A stretch of 38,518 bases of DNA, taken from a virus. How positions within the stretch are numbered: position 1 is the stretch's first letter; every line of letters begins with the position of its first letter. The position numbers were made by a program, and so were the translations under genes. Under the pieces are notes generated by a model, which saw nothing but the letters and a program-made list of their open reading frames with translations, was not told where the DNA came from and did not search any database. Below, in pieces: positions 6,999 through 26,270 of this stretch. Where the stretch lies: IMG/VR virus record IMGVR_UViG_3300028393_000155, positions 1-38,518 of that record. One strand, written 5' to 3'.

Positions 6999-7023
6999 CC
7001 CCTACTAGTTAGGGGCTTTTTTT
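6997..7023 (+). terminator. Rho-independent terminator of the early (+) operon
   Basis: AGCCCCTA (6997-7004) pairs perfectly with TAGGGGCT (7010-7017) around the loop CTAGT, and the stem runs into seven T residues (7017-7023). It ends the + strand transcripts. Read on the - strand the same stem is followed by AAACC, so it has no U-tract in that direction and should not stop the late operon efficiently. Confidence 0.92.
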
Positions 7024-10000
7024 AATTTTCTTCGTCAAAGAACTTATCTCTAATCTCAGGTAATAGTTTTCTATTGAAAGTTACCCCGTTAATCATGTTA
7101 CGTTCTGCGGCTTTCCGTGCGGATTGAGACTTTTGCAGTGTTGTGCCTGTAATTCTATTTCCTGGGTGGGCAGAATTAAAGTCATTAATATCTTCTCTAG
7201 CCTCTGCCATTAGGTCGTAATCACCGCCAGTACGAGCCATGTCGTACATATTTAGGAGGCGCTGGCGCCTGTCTGCTACTTTCTTTTCGTAGTTTTTAGC
7301 GGCAGAAGTAATTTCATATTTGGAAGAGAGAGAAGCCGGACTGAATCCAACAACCTGCATCATGGAGTTATACGCACCAATATCTTCTTCTACTGGATCA
7401 CCTTTAAGGGTACGTGCGCCTTCCACCATGTACCTAGTACCCTTCATGCCATTGCGAATAAAACTAGGTAGGACTGCTTCAATAGCACGTTCTGTGTGCC
7501 CTTCGTTGAACATCTTTGCGGCATTCTCTACGTTAACTAAATAACTACCCGCTGGACCAAACGCTCTTTGCATAGCGCCTAAAACAAGCCCGTCACTTGC
7601 ACGGGGGTCATCTCTCCAAATTAAATCTTGCGCAACACCTACACGGTTAGCAATTTCTAAGTTAGTAATGTAGTTAACTGGACCTTTGTACATAAGTTCA
7701 CCAAAGAAATCACGCAAGTCCTCATTGAAATCATACGGCTCGTCATCGTCACCAAACAATGCATGAAGCATTTGACCCATTACTTGGGCTAGTCCCATGA
7801 ACGGCATACCTTTAACCCCAGCAAAAACGCTAGTCATAGCTATAGTGCCTAACAACTGACGGCGAGCTATATCACGAATTACTTTATTTTCTTCCGCACT
7901 AAGGCTAGGATCTTTTGCAAAAGACTGGTGAAAAGCTCTAGCCATTAAAAAAGCGCTATTCCAAGCAAATGATTTAAATGTAAAGAACACACGACCTATA
8001 GAATTTTGCATCCATAAAGGAGCGGTTTCAGCCATACCGGATGTATGAACATCTTTTACGGTGTCTATTGCATATTGCAAAGCTTTGGTTTCTGAAAAAT
8101 TATTAGCTTTAGCTAAATCGTAAGCAGCAATGGCGGTAATAGCACGGTTGTATTTTTCAGTTGCGGAGAAAGGAATAGACAGACCATCTAATATTTTAGC
8201 TTTAAGACCAACTTGGTCTGCAGTATTAGTGCGGCGACCTTCCATTAATTCTCTAGCTTGTGTATGTTCTAACTGCCCATGATCTTGCAAGTAGTCATAC
8301 AGTCCTTTGTACTTAGGGTCTGTGTTGTCGCCCTTTAATACCCAATTAGAAGCAGTCCTATTAGAAGCAGTCATAGCTGCCGCCGCTTTAGCAAAACCAA
8401 ATCGTGCACCCAGTATAGGGTATACCAGCATAGGAAGCGCAGTTAAGTTAATTAATGCGGAAGAAATGTTACCTGAAATGTATTCAAAATAGCTAAGAGC
8501 CGTAGCTGCATGAGTAAATTTATTAAAAGTTGGGTTATGAAAAAAATCTTGCTGCTGTTTAATATTTTTATATACAGCCGTTAAAGTATCGTCACCTTTG
8601 GCTTGTTCTTTTATTCCTTCTACTGCCGCATCAATTTGTGGGACATAGATTGTGTCTGCAAGTTTTCTAGTCCACTTAAGCATTGTGTCGCCGTATCCAC
8701 GAATAATATCTTTTTCCATACCCGGTACGTTTTTAGAACGCATAAAGTTCTTTGCAATAGAGCCTGCAGGGAATAGGGCCAGATAGGCTTGGTACACGTT
8801 ATTCATTTGCTGCTGAGAAGCAGGGGTCATCTTACCTGTAACTGGGTCTTTAACTGATAACCCTTTCATTACTTGTGCAATAAATGAGGATGATGGAATA
8901 GACCGTGAATTATAGTCCATGCTTTCCAAGTTTTGATAAGTTGTATGCTGTATGTTTTTTAGGTTTTTATCAATAAATTGTTGGCGCTCACGGATAGATT
9001 CAAAAGCAGATGCCGCTTCTTCTCCAGTAACTGGGTCAGGATAACGAACCCAATAATCGCCACGGCGTAAAAACGGTATATAGGCTACAACATTTGAGTT
9101 AGTTTCAAACTGAGCTTTAATCTTTTGCTTTAAAGTTGGGTCATCTGTGCTATTAAGTAAGAAGTCTTTGTATGTATCAAACGCTTTCTTATAGTCATTA
9201 CGTAGGGTATCGTACATCCCTCTAACATCTTTTGGTAAAGCGTTATATATAGCGCGGAGCTGTTGGTACTTCGCAGCATTGACAGGGGTTGTTACAAAAT
9301 TAACATTAGCAGGGTCAACACCAGCCATACGAGCTTCATAAGCCATATCTTCCATACGGCGAACACCAGCAGGGTCAGACTTAGCAATCTTTAAAAAGTT
9401 GCTGTAGTTAGTTTTAACTTGTTTTATAGCGGCTTCTTGGTAACCCCTACGCTTTTCTAGTGCGTCAATCAGCGTTTGGATAGCAGGTAACTTATCACCC
9501 CATATTTTATTTATATGGTCAAGACGCATTAAACTTAAACCCATTGCTTTCCAGCCAGCACCTTGTACGTTAGAAAAGGTATTTAAAGTTTGTTCTATAG
9601 CTTGCTTACCAAGAACAGGCATTGCGTTTCTAGCATCGCTAATAATGTTAAACATCTGCTCACCATTAGAAGGCGCTACAGTATCTGCAATATCTAGGAT
9701 GTCATTGATGGCTTTAATACCAGCTTCGTATGCACTTGTACCTTTACGGAAACCAAAGAACTCAGCCAAAATTTGAACAATACGTTGGAGCATATTGCCG
9801 CTTCTAGGAGCACTGATACCTTTTAACGCATTTCTAAACTCTGGATTACCGACTAACTCAGCAGCAAACTCTTGAATATCTTGCGCACCATAAGAGCTAC
9901 CTAATTGACTGTAAACACTCTCGTATATGGCTGTAAGCTGTTTAGTTAGTGGGTGGTCAGGGTTACGCAGTACGTGTGATATAGCAGCATGAACGGATTC

Positions 10001-13000
10001 GTGGATACCAGTATGTCGGGTTAACCCTAACTCTGGGTCAAGTGTAATTGTGTCAGTAGCTGGGTCATATGCACCAGCATCGGATTCCCCACCAAGACTG
10101 CCTTTTTTACGGGTTACTTTACCCACCTTAGTCTTGGTCTTAAGGCGCATCTTCTCAATCTTTTGGAGAATGCCTTTAATTGTAGGATCTGTTTCGGTAG
10201 CAGCTAGACCAGTAATAAACTCTTGGAACTGGTTGTTATCAACGGCTTCTTCAATACTTTTTGGTAAGCCAGCAAGCCCATAGGATAAGTAATCTACATC
10301 TTCTTCAAGTTCAGCTTCTTGTCTTTTTTCTTTTCTGCGGTCAGAAGACGCTTCACGGGCTTTGCCTAATTCAGCAGCTTGAGACGCTTGTTCTTTTTTA
10401 AGTTCTTTGTTTTTACTTTCGCTTTCAAGGCGTTGTTTAGCCTCAACAATTTTGCCAGCAATAACCGAATCAAATAAATCATTACCATGCTTGTTAAGAA
10501 AAGAAATACCGTCAGCCCTATCTTTTTGACTGGCAGTCATTAGATTATTTAATAACCTAGTAGCTTCTGCGCCTGATTTAGCAACGGCTTCTTTAACCAT
10601 TTGCAACTGAGTAATATCTCTTGCACGTTTAGCACGTCCAGCTGAGGTGTCTTCAAAATTGTTAACGCTATCTTGCAAATCAAGTGCGCTATTAAACAGT
10701 GCGGGCAAGCGTAATATATCTACGGCTTCTTTAACATCTTCTGGAGTAATATTAACTTCATTAGGCAACAACCCTTCTTTCTCCGCCGTTTTATCTATTT
10801 TGCGACTAAGGTTTAAGGCAGTGCGAACTTCATTTTTTTCAATTTCTTGGGCTTGGTCTTCAAGAATAAGTTCAGCATTAGTCTGGGTTTTAGCTACATC
10901 TTTAGCTTCTTTTACCCCTAGTGGACGCTCGACTGCTCCTTTTCCTGCAATATCTTGTCCAACAGAAAGTCCAGGTGCAGCCACTCCTCCTGCGTTAGGT
11001 TTTGTAATGCTTTGGGCAGGTCCAAGTCCAGACACGTCTTGGGCGACTGTAGTATCTTGAATGCTAGGCTGACTTGTTCCGGCGATAGGTTCATTTGAAG
11101 TCTCCTGTATAAATTGTTGAAACTCTGGACGTGATAAGAACGTAGATATCTTAGCCTTAGTTTCTTTGTTTTTGTGTTTTTCTGCAGCCGCTTCTAATAC
11201 GGCTTTTACTTCAGCAGCTTGAGCTGGGTCGGTAATATCTTTACCATGTATTAACTTGTTTCTAATAAACGTTGCGGTTGGACCAATACCTAGTGTTCTA
11301 AATGTAGAGTCGTCAATTGTTGTAGGAAGTTGTTCTACTGTAACTGGTGTAGGTTTAGCACGAACTACAGGCTCGGCAATAACTTCTTCTGGTGCAGTTG
11401 CCACGGGTGCTGGAGGTGGTGTAGTTGCTGCAGGTGCTGGTTGACCAAATAAACCAAGTTGTCCAACGTTAGCTTTGCGTTCTTCTTCAGCAGCTTTATA
11501 GGCGGCTTCGGCTTCTTTGGCTGTAGGCAGTTTAGTACCTTCAAACAAGTCTGCTTGTTTAGCTCCTAGTACTTTTTTAAGTTTAGCTTGAGCTTCTTTT
11601 AATGCGGTCTTTTCTTTTTGCTCCGCTTGGCGGATGCGGTTAGCTTCAGCTTTGTCACCTTTAGTTTTGGCAAGTTCAGCAGCTTTGGTAGGTTGCCCGT
11701 TCTCATCAAACAGAGTTACTTGTTTGCCTGATAAATCTTTAGGTGCATTTTTAGCAGCCTCTTTAGCTAGCTTGGCATCTTCTTTAGCTTGAGCTTTAAT
11801 AGCATTAGCGTCATATAGTTCTGTATAAGGACCAGTCTCTAAACCAGGAAGTTCGCCTTGGTCTTGTAGTTGTTGGTACTCTTCTACGGATACCCCTGCG
11901 GCATCAGCTTCGGCTTTTAAATCAGCGGCTTGTTTATATTGATCTAGTCTACCAGCACGTTTCTGTTGGGCAGCATTGTATTGAGATTGACGGCGAGCAG
12001 CTTCAGTAGCACCACCAGCCGTACCAAATCCTGCACCACCTACAGCGCCACGGACGCTGGACTCCATGATGCGATTCCACTCTTTACTACCAAATACTTG
12101 TGGGTTATCCGAAACAAATCGTTCGGCAGCAATACTAATAGCTTCTTGCGCACCTTCGGTCATACCTTCAAAACCGGCGCCTTTTAACATATTAGCGCTT
12201 ACTGTACGCAGTAAGCCTTTGTCCATGCCAGACTTCTCAAGTATTTTTTCTACTACCCCAACCCTCATTGGACCAGTTAAGCTTTTGGCTAATTGAGAAG
12301 GCAGCACAGAGTCTAATGCGGCAGAACCAGCACCAAACAATAAAGATGTTCCTACTTCAAGTTTGCCAGTTTCTTCGTATATATTTTGAAAAACTTCGGG
12401 AGCATTTTGTGCGTAAGAGCCTAAGAAAATACCAGCGTTTTGTGCGGCACTTTTTATATTTGCTAATTGTGGAAGAGATTGTTTAACACCTTGGGCAATA
12501 AATGCATTTGCAGCTTCTCCAGCTAGCCCTTTTTCAGCAGCTTGAACTGCAAGATTTTTAGCAATACCATTGGCAGCTGTTCGGGCGGCTACTGCTTGAA
12601 GACCAACACCAGGAATTAACGAGGTTAAGATATTAGGTATTTGCTCAACAATCGTCTCTAAAACAAATCCAGGAGCATCAGTAATACCTTTTACGTCCGA
12701 TAGCTCTTTATATTGCGGAGCATAGTACTTATTTATTTCTTCTTGGGTGGCTTTTGCCTCACCCATCTGTCTTTCAGCAAACTCATCAAACCCAAGAGCT
12801 TTACCTGCCATAGCAGGAATGATGTCACCAAAAGTAGAACCTAGTTGTTTTGTGCCACGAGTAAAGGCTTTTTTAGCCATTTCACCATAGCCTACATTTC
12901 CTTTAGGTATTTCAAAATCATACTTTTTAGCTAAATGTTCTAATTGGGAACTTAATTCTTCAGCCGATAAATTATCATCAAACTGAACAGCCCCCAGTTT

Positions 13001-13018
13001 TGGTAAGTCAAGAAGCAT
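7022..13018 (-). CDS. Giant virion/ejection protein with zincin-like motif (polyvalent, PLxRFG-type protein)
   Basis: The 1998-aa protein is the largest in the window and ends the late arm. Residues 1-350 are Ala/Gly-rich helices. Residues about 350-960 are charged, Ala/Lys/Glu-rich coiled coil and linker with a Pro/Ala stretch near 525-555. At 1006-1010 is HESVH, an HExxH zinc-protease motif (H1006, E1007, H1010), followed about 40 residues later by EFAAELVGN, which may supply a third ligand. The last about 700 residues resemble the C-terminal part of phage 'PLxRFG'/large polyvalent proteins (PILGARFGF, FKSFAWNSAF, FGDDDEPYDFNEDL). Such proteins are thought to be injected with the DNA. It follows an SLT protein, matching the position of T7 gp16. 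I did not find a literal PLxRFG string. Residual function (protease, membrane channel) is inferred. Confidence 0.75.
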   Translation of the reverse strand: MLLDLPKLGAVQFDDNLSAEELSSQLEHLAKKYDFEIPKGNVGYGEMAKKAFTRGTKQLGSTFGDIIPAMAGKALGFDEFAERQMGEAKATQEEINKYYAPQYKELSDVKGITDAPGFVLETIVEQIPNILTSLIPGVGLQAVAARTAANGIAKNLAVQAAEKGLAGEAANAFIAQGVKQSLPQLANIKSAAQNAGIFLGSYAQNAPEVFQNIYEETGKLEVGTSLLFGAGSAALDSVLPSQLAKSLTGPMRVGVVEKILEKSGMDKGLLRTVSANMLKGAGFEGMTEGAQEAISIAAERFVSDNPQVFGSKEWNRIMESSVRGAVGGAGFGTAGGATEAARRQSQYNAAQQKRAGRLDQYKQAADLKAEADAAGVSVEEYQQLQDQGELPGLETGPYTELYDANAIKAQAKEDAKLAKEAAKNAPKDLSGKQVTLFDENGQPTKAAELAKTKGDKAEANRIRQAEQKEKTALKEAQAKLKKVLGAKQADLFEGTKLPTAKEAEAAYKAAEEERKANVGQLGLFGQPAPAATTPPPAPVATAPEEVIAEPVVRAKPTPVTVEQLPTTIDDSTFRTLGIGPTATFIRNKLIHGKDITDPAQAAEVKAVLEAAAEKHKNKETKAKISTFLSRPEFQQFIQETSNEPIAGTSQPSIQDTTVAQDVSGLGPAQSITKPNAGGVAAPGLSVGQDIAGKGAVERPLGVKEAKDVAKTQTNAELILEDQAQEIEKNEVRTALNLSRKIDKTAEKEGLLPNEVNITPEDVKEAVDILRLPALFNSALDLQDSVNNFEDTSAGRAKRARDITQLQMVKEAVAKSGAEATRLLNNLMTASQKDRADGISFLNKHGNDLFDSVIAGKIVEAKQRLESESKNKELKKEQASQAAELGKAREASSDRRKEKRQEAELEEDVDYLSYGLAGLPKSIEEAVDNNQFQEFITGLAATETDPTIKGILQKIEKMRLKTKTKVGKVTRKKGSLGGESDAGAYDPATDTITLDPELGLTRHTGIHESVHAAISHVLRNPDHPLTKQLTAIYESVYSQLGSSYGAQDIQEFAAELVGNPEFRNALKGISAPRSGNMLQRIVQILAEFFGFRKGTSAYEAGIKAINDILDIADTVAPSNGEQMFNIISDARNAMPVLGKQAIEQTLNTFSNVQGAGWKAMGLSLMRLDHINKIWGDKLPAIQTLIDALEKRRGYQEAAIKQVKTNYSNFLKIAKSDPAGVRRMEDMAYEARMAGVDPANVNFVTTPVNAAKYQQLRAIYNALPKDVRGMYDTLRNDYKKAFDTYKDFLLNSTDDPTLKQKIKAQFETNSNVVAYIPFLRRGDYWVRYPDPVTGEEAASAFESIRERQQFIDKNLKNIQHTTYQNLESMDYNSRSIPSSSFIAQVMKGLSVKDPVTGKMTPASQQQMNNVYQAYLALFPAGSIAKNFMRSKNVPGMEKDIIRGYGDTMLKWTRKLADTIYVPQIDAAVEGIKEQAKGDDTLTAVYKNIKQQQDFFHNPTFNKFTHAATALSYFEYISGNISSALINLTALPMLVYPILGARFGFAKAAAAMTASNRTASNWVLKGDNTDPKYKGLYDYLQDHGQLEHTQARELMEGRRTNTADQVGLKAKILDGLSIPFSATEKYNRAITAIAAYDLAKANNFSETKALQYAIDTVKDVHTSGMAETAPLWMQNSIGRVFFTFKSFAWNSAFLMARAFHQSFAKDPSLSAEENKVIRDIARRQLLGTIAMTSVFAGVKGMPFMGLAQVMGQMLHALFGDDDEPYDFNEDLRDFFGELMYKGPVNYITNLEIANRVGVAQDLIWRDDPRASDGLVLGAMQRAFGPAGSYLVNVENAAKMFNEGHTERAIEAVLPSFIRNGMKGTRYMVEGARTLKGDPVEEDIGAYNSMMQVVGFSPASLSSKYEITSAAKNYEKKVADRRQRLLNMYDMARTGGDYDLMAEAREDINDFNSAHPGNRITGTTLQKSQSARKAAERNMINGVTFNRKLLPEIRDKFFDEEN

Positions 13019-20598: not shown

Positions 20599-21186
20599 TT
20601 ACCCTAATACGGATATTGCTTTGGCAATTTTAGCTTTGCGGTCATCAAGTCCGAGTAACCCGCCGTTAATACGTTTAGTCATTGTCTCATAATCCTTAGT
20701 ATCAGCCAAGGCGTTTAATCCCTTTTTGTTCCAGAACCAAGCTGCGGAAAGGCAAGCGTATCGTGGGTCCAGCAATAAAGTAGGGTCAGCAAGAAGATCA
20801 GCACCAATACCAGATCCGCAGTGTTCATAGTTTTCTTTGCCTGTAAGTTGGATAAGACCTCTGCCTAAATATTTAGCAGCTTCTTCCTCGCTGGTGTTAC
20901 CTAATCTACCGTTATAAACTTTACCTGCAATCTTGGCTGGTTGACGTGCATACTGGTCTGCAATTTCTTTTGTAGGAAACCGACTAGGCCAAGTCTTCAT
21001 TAGACCTTCTGCGCTATAGTTTAGGTTTTCTTGCAAGACTTTAAAATTAGCAGACTCATGAGCACACTGACCAATAAACGATGCTTGACGGATAGGTGTT
21101 GTAATGTCATATTTAGCAAACGCCTCTTCTAGTGGTCCAAGCCATTTGTGGTCAATACCTAATTTATCTAGTTGGTCATACGTCAT
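20599..21186 (-). CDS. Endolysin, GH19 chitinase-like muramidase
   Basis: The 195-aa protein is full length for a single-domain GH19 endolysin. The first catalytic Glu is E44 in CAHESANF and the second is E53 in VLQENLNYS, at the expected spacing; GRGLIQLTGKENY (about 108-120) is the conserved substrate-groove motif. It lacks a signal peptide or membrane anchor, so it needs a holin. Its start overlaps the stop of the Rz-like gene (ATGA 21183-21186). Unusually the order in transcription is holin, Rz/Rz1, endolysin. It hydrolyses peptidoglycan at the end of infection. Confidence 0.88.
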   Translation of the reverse strand: MTYDQLDKLGIDHKWLGPLEEAFAKYDITTPIRQASFIGQCAHESANFKVLQENLNYSAEGLMKTWPSRFPTKEIADQYARQPAKIAGKVYNGRLGNTSEEEAAKYLGRGLIQLTGKENYEHCGSGIGADLLADPTLLLDPRYACLSAAWFWNKKGLNALADTKDYETMTKRINGGLLGLDDRKAKIAKAISVLG

Positions 21187-21566
21187 TTAATTGCCTCATA
21201 TTGTTTGTAGCAAGCTTGTAAGGCAACTCTTATTTCGTCTGCTCTGGCAGCTTCCCTAACAAGAAACTCTGAATCCTCGGCATAAAGGCTGGCTCCGTTG
21301 CAACCCTTTCTATCTGCGGTTTCTGTGGCACGACTGGGACGCTTACGCAACTCGCTAACAGCATCGACCAACTGAGTATTAATAGCTTTGATTTGAGCAT
21401 CTTTGTCTTTCCTTATTTGATCTGCATCTGCTTGATATTGATGTTCTTTGTCACGGACAGTTTTTTCTGCTTTACTTTGATGATACGAACAACCGTTAAC
21501 AAACCCACCACAAAATAAAGTAATGGCTACCATTACATAAATAGCATAGATATTTAAGCCAAACAT
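21183..21566 (-). CDS. Rz: i-spanin, Rz-like inner-membrane subunit
   Basis: This 127-aa protein has one N-terminal membrane segment (about residues 7-25: AIYVMVAITLFCGGFV) and a long periplasmic helical domain rich in charged residues (EKTVRDKEHQYQADAD, about 33-70). It ends in a Rz-type tail with SEFLVREAARADEIR and ALQACY. Such a protein spans the periplasm and joins an outer-membrane lipoprotein to fuse the two membranes. The partner gene lies in the +1 frame inside this one (21230-21400). The start overlaps the stop of the holin gene in TAATG. It supports a Gram-negative host. Confidence 0.8.
   Translation of the reverse strand: MFGLNIYAIYVMVAITLFCGGFVNGCSYHQSKAEKTVRDKEHQYQADADQIRKDKDAQIKAINTQLVDAVSELRKRPSRATETADRKGCNGASLYAEDSEFLVREAARADEIRVALQACYKQYEAIK
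21230..21400 (-). CDS. Rz1: o-spanin, Rz1-like lipoprotein nested inside the Rz gene
   Basis: Read in the +1 frame of the Rz gene, from ATG 21400 to TAA 21230-21232, is a 56-aa protein. It has a basic start (MLKSK), a hydrophobic segment (LLILSWSMLLAS) and a lipobox LASC at residues 15-18, so the mature lipoprotein would begin at C18. The mature part is short and Pro-rich at first (VPVVPQKPQ), as in Rz1 proteins. AAGGA lies about 10 nt upstream of the ATG. A fully embedded Rz1 is the arrangement of phage lambda. The gene is missed by length-based ORF calls. Together with Rz it makes the spanin pair. Confidence 0.88.
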   Translation of the reverse strand: MLKSKLLILSWSMLLASCVSVPVVPQKPQIERVATEPAFMPRIQSFLLGKLPEQTK

Positions 21567-21769
21567 TACTTCTCGTCCAAAGGCATCGTTGTTAAAACAC
21601 GCAAAACTGCTACAGCTGCACCAATTAAAATAAGCAACACACCATACACACGAGGGTCAATAATGTTTTGCACATAGCTAAAGTTATCGTAAGCAGCGCC
21701 CAATATAGCTACTGCCAATGCCAACCACATCGTTTTAGAACGCATAGCGCACCGTATGCTACGACGCAT
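21566..21769 (-). CDS. Holin, two-transmembrane type
   Basis: The 67-aa protein has a basic N-terminus (MRRSIRCAMRSK), two hydrophobic segments (about 14-31, WLALAVAILGAAY; about 41-59, VYGVLLILIGAAVAVL) and a short charged tail (PLDEK). This, and its place directly before the spanin and endolysin genes, makes it the likely holin that times lysis. Met codons at 1, 9 and 14 offer alternative starts, the first two separated by basic residues; lambda S uses such a dual start to make holin and antiholin. I see no strong ribosome site for the inner starts. The ATG at 21769 overlaps the stop of the previous gene. Confidence 0.75.
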   Translation of the reverse strand: MRRSIRCAMRSKTMWLALAVAILGAAYDNFSYVQNIIDPRVYGVLLILIGAAVAVLRVLTTMPLDEK

Positions 21770-21975
21770 TACTTAGCTTTCGGTTTACGAGTAGTAGCTT
21801 TTTTTACAGTAGATTTTTTAGCAACTGGTTTCTTAATAGGCGCTGGCTCTTCTGCTAAGTTTTTAACTTCTACTTCTGCAAAAGGCCACTGTGTAGTTAC
21901 GTTAACCTTACCAACTTGCATATCTACTTTTGGCATATAGCCAAGCTTGTCAAACAACCATGAAAATAAAAACAT
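21769..21975 (-). CDS. Small basic protein of unknown function next to the holin
   Basis: The 68-aa protein starts MFLFSWLFDKLGYMPK, a short amphipathic or membrane-leaning stretch, and then a small beta part (VDMQVGKVNVTTQWPF). The last 25 residues are Lys/Pro/Ala-rich (KKPVAKKSTVKKATTRKPK), like the disordered tail of histone H1-type proteins. It could bind nucleic acid or the membrane surface. Start and stop both overlap their neighbours in TAATG, so it belongs to the translationally coupled run of fibre, small protein, holin and spanin. No known lysis function fits; a lysis accessory or antiholin is possible but unsupported. Confidence 0.55.
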   Translation of the reverse strand: MFLFSWLFDKLGYMPKVDMQVGKVNVTTQWPFAEVEVKNLAEEPAPIKKPVAKKSTVKKATTRKPKAK

Positions 21976-24886: not shown

Positions 24887-25773
24887 TATTGGAATCTCCA
24901 TTTAATAACTACAATACCTGAACCACCGTTACCACCACGACCACCGCCATTGTCACCACCGCCACCTCCACCAGTATTTGCAGTTCCACTAATACCAGGA
25001 GTATCAGCAGAACCTCCACCTCCAGTACCGCCAGTTCCTTGTGTTATTACAATGCCACCACCTGCACTAGTACTAGCAAATCCCCCACCGCCTCCAGCAT
25101 ATGTAACGGATGTGCCAGTAATTGAATTAGGACTGCCATCACCACCATTTCCACCAGTTGAGGTTAATGTAGTTGCGCTACCACTTCCACCAGATTGAGA
25201 AGCTCCACCACCACCACCACCATATCTATTAAAATAAGCAGTTTTTAAACCTGGGTTAACTGACAATCTTCCACCATTGCCGCCAGAATTTCCTTGTCCC
25301 GATGTTCCTGAGCCAGGGTTACTAGAAGATTGACCTCCGCCACCTCCACTACCACCAGTTCCGCCATCTACGTTATCGTAACCGCCCTTACCGCCTCCAG
25401 TAGAAATTATTAAACTACCTATTGAAGAATCTGACCCATTAGCCGGAGAACTATTTCCAAGACCGCCAGCGCCAACGGTAACAGTATAACTAGTTGCAGT
25501 AACTGTTTGACCTGTTGCAGCTAAAAGACCTCCAGCACCGCCACCGCCTCCTCTGCCTGGACCTCCAGGACCTCCACCAGCTACTACAAGATATTCAATA
25601 GTGCTAGATTCAACACTTCCAGAACCAACAGAGTTAACCGTAAATGAGCCTGTGCCAAGGAAACTAGCAATTTTATAATTACCGCTTGTAGTTACAGTTG
25701 CACCTGAAGTTGTAGCATCTATATAAGTAGCTGCAAGTCCAGCCGTTTGGAAAGCATTAATTGCGGCAAACAT
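24886..25773 (-). CDS. Glycine-rich fibre/adhesin protein (295 aa)
   Basis: Start ATG 25773 (MFAAINAFQTAGLAATYIDA) overlaps the previous stop in TAATG; the longer frame to 25809 is not needed. After a beta N-terminal part (about 1-75, NYKIASFLGTGSFTVNSVGS) it is extremely Gly/Ser-rich with GGGG runs, and ends with the short strand GSGIVVIKWRFQ. Glycine-rich domains with short Gly blocks separated by Ser/Asn/Thr can fold as a polyglycine-II sandwich, as in the Salmonella phage S16 adhesin gp38; applying that here is inference. It probably sits at a fibre tip. The complement of the Gly codons reads as long Pro-rich frames, which are not genes. Confidence 0.75.
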   Translation of the reverse strand: MFAAINAFQTAGLAATYIDATTSGATVTTSGNYKIASFLGTGSFTVNSVGSGSVESSTIEYLVVAGGGPGGPGRGGGGGAGGLLAATGQTVTATSYTVTVGAGGLGNSSPANGSDSSIGSLIISTGGGKGGYDNVDGGTGGSGGGGGQSSSNPGSGTSGQGNSGGNGGRLSVNPGLKTAYFNRYGGGGGGASQSGGSGSATTLTSTGGNGGDGSPNSITGTSVTYAGGGGGFASTSAGGGIVITQGTGGTGGGGSADTPGISGTANTGGGGGGDNGGGRGGNGGSGIVVIKWRFQ

Positions 25774-26270
25774 TATGGTGTGTAACCTTGTGAAATAGAA
25801 CCATACCAATTTGTACCATCAGCAACAAATGTCAGAATATCCATTTTGCCAGCAGTAGCTGTAATAGTTGGCGCACCAGAAGTACCCCATTTAACACCTG
25901 TAAATGTAGCTGTACCGTTACCTGTAGAAGCCGCTTGCTTTAATAGCAAGATAAATGATTTACCAGCGGTTGCTGTAGGCATTGTAAATGTACAAGCGGT
26001 AGAAGCTGTCAATGTAGCAGTCTGAACAGTGCCGTTAGTTAATGCAATCGTATTGGTAGTTGTAACTGTTCCAATAGCCACTACACTTTCAGTGTAGTTT
26101 GTAATTGTAGAATTTGTTATTGTTGGTGTAGTTAATGATGGGCTAGTTCCTAAAACAACAGCACCAGAACCTGTAGAAGTAGTAACTCCTGTACCTCCGT
26201 TGGTAACAGCCAGAACACCAGATGAACTTGCGCCTTCGGCAAGAATAGATAGGTTACGTGAAATAGTCAT
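25773..26270 (-). CDS. Short tail-fibre protein (165 aa)
   Basis: The protein begins MTISRNLSILAEGASSSG and has the sequence NGGTGVTTSTGSGAVVLGTS, the usual hinge of phage side fibres between an N-terminal attachment part and a shaft. Later strands (TATLTASTACTFTMPTAT, GKMDILTFVADGTNWYG) resemble the end of short fibre proteins and the sequence is typical beta-rich, Thr/Ser-rich, without long helices. It is probably the fibre shaft or an adaptor for the Gly-rich protein that follows, whose start it overlaps. Its start has no strong ribosome site. It is too short to hold a receptor-binding domain of its own. Confidence 0.7.
   Translation of the reverse strand: MTISRNLSILAEGASSSGVLAVTNGGTGVTTSTGSGAVVLGTSPSLTTPTITNSTITNYTESVVAIGTVTTTNTIALTNGTVQTATLTASTACTFTMPTATAGKSFILLLKQAASTGNGTATFTGVKWGTSGAPTITATAGKMDILTFVADGTNWYGSISQGYTP

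Follow-up and report, generated by a model that had tools for sequence, protein, structure and literature searches.

The question raised by this locus is whether the 127-codon reading frame at 21183..21566 (minus strand) of the window, the whole 38,518-nucleotide stretch of viral DNA analysed here (IMG/VR record IMGVR_UViG_3300028393_000155), encodes a single protein or two proteins in different frames, and in the latter case whether the two form a spanin pair. We confirmed the enclosing frame (21566..21183); read in +1, it contains a 56-codon gene with an ATG at 21400 and a TAA at 21230-21232, exactly to the base as the initial annotation had proposed.

The 127-aa product of the enclosing gene matches PHROG 1327 ('Rz-like spanin') with an E-value of 1.6e-9, and relatives of it are carried by 33 loci in a scan of IMG/VR. 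Its match to the Pfam family DUF2514 (PF10721; 22.8 bits) falls just below the curated cut-off of 26; the same family is matched by 12 of 19 homologues of the protein (E-values up to 0.01). A low-confidence AlphaFold model (mean pLDDT 58.6) places helices at residues 6-20, 26-74 and 96-126, suggesting an N-terminal hydrophobic helix, a long periplasmic helix, a linker and a second helix. At the low confidence of this model, the outer product thus appears to combine one N-terminal transmembrane segment with a helical periplasmic domain, and the hydrophobic N-terminus runs across the family alignment. The i-spanin-like character initially claimed for the enclosing gene is supported by the profile match and by its location, with a holin gene on one side and an endolysin gene on the other.

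Indeed, the gene lies in a lysis cassette, in the order holin (upstream), Rz/Rz1, endolysin (downstream). The holin gene (67 aa; 21566..21769, minus strand; PHROG 1356 holin, E-value 6e-4; DUF7940 below the cut-off) has one base in common with the start of the i-spanin gene (TAATG), and the gene for a GH19 chitinase-type endolysin (195 aa; 20599..21186, minus strand; PHROG 181, E-value 2.7e-75; Pfam PF00182, E-value 1.3e-11) overlaps the i-spanin stop (ATGA). Relatives of the holin are found upstream of Rz in most related loci, and in many relatives the pair has a related holin and a related endolysin on its two sides, in some of them with extra DNA in between. A scan for promoters and terminators performed no better than chance. 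Upstream of the holin gene lies a 68-aa ORF (21769-21975) with a Lys/Pro/Ala-rich tail, the N-terminal half of which was seen among the relatives in L005 alone (68% identity). Elsewhere in the window a 1998-aa ORF (7022-13018) contains an LPD39 domain and has a C-terminal part like DarB-like antirestriction proteins (PHROG 10089); its product is possibly an ejected virion protein.

The inner gene (21230..21400, minus strand) is situated wholly within the i-spanin gene, at an offset of 166 nt, and encodes the 56-aa o-spanin MLKSKLLILSWSMLLASCVSVPVVPQKPQIERVATEPAFMPRIQSFLLGKLPEQTK. The N-terminal part of the product, MLKSKLLILSWSMLLASC, includes a predicted type II signal peptide (residues 1-17; 21350..21400, minus strand; sequence and an AlphaFold helix at 2-16), with the Lys residues K3 and K5 (KxK) in the n-region, the h-region LLILSWSMLLAS, and the lipobox LASC at residues 15-18 (21347..21358, minus strand). 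The basic N-terminus, hydrophobic segment and lipobox had all been described at the outset and were recovered here; judged by rule, the signal peptide matches the type II pattern [LVI][ASTVI][GAS]C. The lipobox Cys is invariant in an alignment of 22 o-spanins, and Cys18 is the predicted lipidated residue; it is followed by Val here and never by Asp across the family sequences. The claim of a Pro-rich mature part stands in so far as the 39 aa are proline-enriched (6 Pro, 15%), but a run of adjacent prolines, like the penta-proline of lambda Rz1, was sought in these 39 residues and not found. Besides the signal helix, the AlphaFold model of the o-spanin (mean pLDDT 75.5) has a C-terminal helix at 37-47. 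Its own profile matches are weak (E-value 0.013 or worse, covering mainly the signal peptide), although all are to Rz-like spanin PHROG families, and searches of phage collections with o-spanin sequences alone returned nothing useful, because these sequences are too short.

A candidate ribosome-binding site, AAGGA, recognised by its match to the consensus, is located 9 nt 5' of the o-spanin ATG (21410..21414, minus strand), and AGGA occurs at the same distance from the start in 28 of the 28 genes listed. The nested frame starts at 0.44 and ends at 0.88 of the i-spanin length. This is close to the published range: in about 70% of embedded pairs the nested start lies at 0.4-0.5 and the end at 0.9-1 (PMC6139136).

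Could the nested ORF have arisen simply as a by-product of the codons used in a conserved Rz gene, with no protein being made from it? By length alone, a nested ORF is not unusual: when the Rz protein was recoded synonymously with the window's codon usage, 10% of the sequences had one of 56 aa or more. When a lipobox in the right place (10-25 residues in) was required as well, the number was 15 in 100,000 recodings, and 52 in 100,000 when the gene's own codons were shuffled. Against such a by-product speaks, besides the invariant lipobox Cys, a comparison of 28 distinct complete homologous genes, the window's included. Stops that break the inner frame, which the initial annotation had named as evidence against the gene, were found in none of them: across the overlap DNA the +1 frame contains 0 stops versus 152 in the +2 frame, and upstream of the overlap the two out-of-frame readings contain 96 and 94. 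Moreover, among 20 closer genes the diversity at Rz third positions is 0.445 in the 5' part, 0.139 in the overlap and 0.471 in the 3' part, a threefold fall at silent sites that is confined to the nested frame and reversed past the inner stop codon.

The substitution pattern is in line with this. Per possible (weighted) change, substitutions that are silent in Rz and change Rz1 occur at 0.0216 in the overlap (13 non-overlapping close pairs) versus 0.1149 upstream (9 pairs), a 5.3-fold suppression (Fisher p=4e-29). Within the overlap, the rate is 0.0219 for substitutions that change Rz and are silent in Rz1, and 0.12 for those silent in both. The rates for the two frames are nearly equal and far below the doubly silent rate; therefore both frames are under purifying selection of similar strength, which answers the comparison of codon conservation that had been called for. 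The stop counts and the substitution pattern rule out a chance ORF, and the probability that the frame merely reflects codon choice is practically negligible.

Given a real inner gene, its lipoprotein might still have a job independent of Rz, for instance in superinfection exclusion. Exclusion proteins do occur among small phage lipoproteins, and one distant relative shows a weak PHROG match to the Cor superinfection exclusion protein (E-value 0.048). Throughout the family, however, the gene is nested in an Rz-like gene within the lysis cassette, and the best profile matches of the family are spanins, so that we regard such an independent role as very improbable. It is the enclosing protein that would be the outer-membrane lipoprotein, and not an i-spanin, if its stretch VNGC (residues 23-26), which resembles a lipobox and has a VTGC counterpart in one relative, were functional. 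Yet this Cys is missing in L024-L033, whose N-terminal segments are hydrophobic all the same, a basic n-region is lacking, and the profile match is to Rz-like spanins. We consider a lipoprotein nature of the 127-aa protein exceedingly unlikely, and rejected it on the loss of the Cys in the more distant relatives.

The Rz/Rz1 pair is thus almost certainly an embedded two-component spanin, given the Rz-like profile match, the kept cassette, the invariant Cys, the open frame, the substitution pattern and the nested pairs in distant homologues. It shares with this class the nested out-of-frame ORF, a lipobox with a type II signal (by rule), the cassette and the dual selection. For the topology, lipidation, complex formation and fusion we reason by analogy with work on lambda. 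The N-terminal helix of the i-spanin would serve as its anchor in the inner membrane, whereas the o-spanin would reach the outer membrane after cleavage in front of Cys18 and lipidation; through their C-terminal parts the two would form a complex spanning the periplasm. Holin and endolysin would act first, breaching the inner membrane and degrading the peptidoglycan, after which the spanin complex would finish lysis. Very probably, the two proteins jointly bring about fusion of the inner and outer membranes of a Gram-negative host, releasing the phages.

Relatives of the i-spanin were also found in four bacterial genome contigs: one of Rhodoferax sp. TH121 (846 kb), one each of a Sheuella and a Rhodocyclaceae MAG, and one of a cyanobacterial MAG, which at 17.5 kb may be a misbinned phage. 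A nested lipobox-type ORF is present in all four, the Rhodocyclaceae one having the less usual STAC. In the order of Rhodoferax sp. TH121, the i-spanin profile was matched in 3 of 398 other genomes sampled, and two genomes sampled from this order (L049, L050) have such a nested ORF. In L051, the i-spanin match is weak (E-value 2.3e-4) and the lipobox ORF extends beyond the i-spanin stop; this pair would be overlapped and not embedded. Locus L023 is a 2236-bp IMG/VR contig in which a direct terminal repeat of 121 bp lies within the spanin gene; when the ends are simply joined, the doubled sequence still lacks a restored Rz frame, and the contig is probably a small assembly artefact. The nested pairs in these bacterial genomes and in Edwardsiella phage vB_EpM_ZHS fit a Gram-negative host for the window's phage; the host proposed initially is thereby supported by inference from the wider family, which stops short of a specific host.

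The C-terminal part of the o-spanin contains a conserved motif, FMPRIQSFLLGKLPEQT (21236..21286, minus strand), and the same DNA encodes part of the second helix of the i-spanin (EDSEFLVREAARADE). Across the family the o-spanin motif is roughly FxxRMxxFLSGKLPEQT (short form FxxRxxxFLxGKLP), on DNA shared with i-spanin EFLxREAARAD; in the 22-row alignment F46 and L47 are invariant, F39 and G49 nearly so. Real genes carry 6-10 of 10 consensus positions, versus about 2-3 when the i-spanin stretch was recoded at random with synonymous codons. Gene by gene, the P values of this excess range from 0.007 to below 5e-5 in nine genes, but they are indicative only, since these are related genes compared with a consensus drawn from the same family. 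Both frames are constrained within the motif DNA too, on small counts (12 and 8 substitutions). In the lambda pair, genetically sensitive parts of one gene lie opposite silent parts of the other, for Rz and Rz1 alike (PMC5295617). It is conceivable, though we hold it somewhat doubtful, that functional C-terminal motifs of i-spanin helix 2 and the o-spanin are here, unlike in lambda, written on the same roughly 50 nt. If both were needed, the two motifs would be superimposed and co-functional instead of segregated.

Automatic annotation misses embedded genes of this kind. With this pair comes a further spanin family, most of it from contigs of uncultivated phages. In environmental phages it is a statistically clean example of two co-functional genes that occupy a single stretch of DNA, and it lends itself to a comparison with lambda of the ways in which constraint is shared or divided between overlapping genes.

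Embedded two-component spanins have been catalogued by Kongari et al. 2018 (PMC6139136). In lambda the o-spanin ORF lies wholly in the i-spanin gene, in the +1 frame of its second half (PMC5295617, PMC6139136), and the window's ORF is fully nested in the same manner. Lambda Rz consists of a TM, CC1, a linker and CC2 (PMC5295617), resembled by the N-terminal TM, two helices and linker of our low-confidence i-spanin model, and the mature part of the predicted lipoprotein o-spanin has about 40 aa, as in lambda Rz1. The lambda-like character initially assigned to the pair holds for this embedded arrangement, but not for the o-spanin sequence, which lacks the penta-proline stretch of Rz1, has no Cys in its mature part other than the lipidated one, and instead has the conserved C-terminal helix motif. 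The gene order holin, Rz/Rz1, endolysin and the GH19 type of the endolysin also differ from lambda. Another comparable pair is that of Edwardsiella phage vB_EpM_ZHS (OM621816), in which the Rz-like ORF (32% identity over 75% of the query) encloses a lipobox-type ORF that has an FLSGxLP motif, although this is a 71-kb phage of another type. In OM621816.1 the pair (25695-26006; L039) is unannotated, no gene being given on that strand, and a short opposite-strand ORF is annotated over part of it. The embedded arrangement itself is thus already known from lambda; new are another clear example and its family-specific differences.
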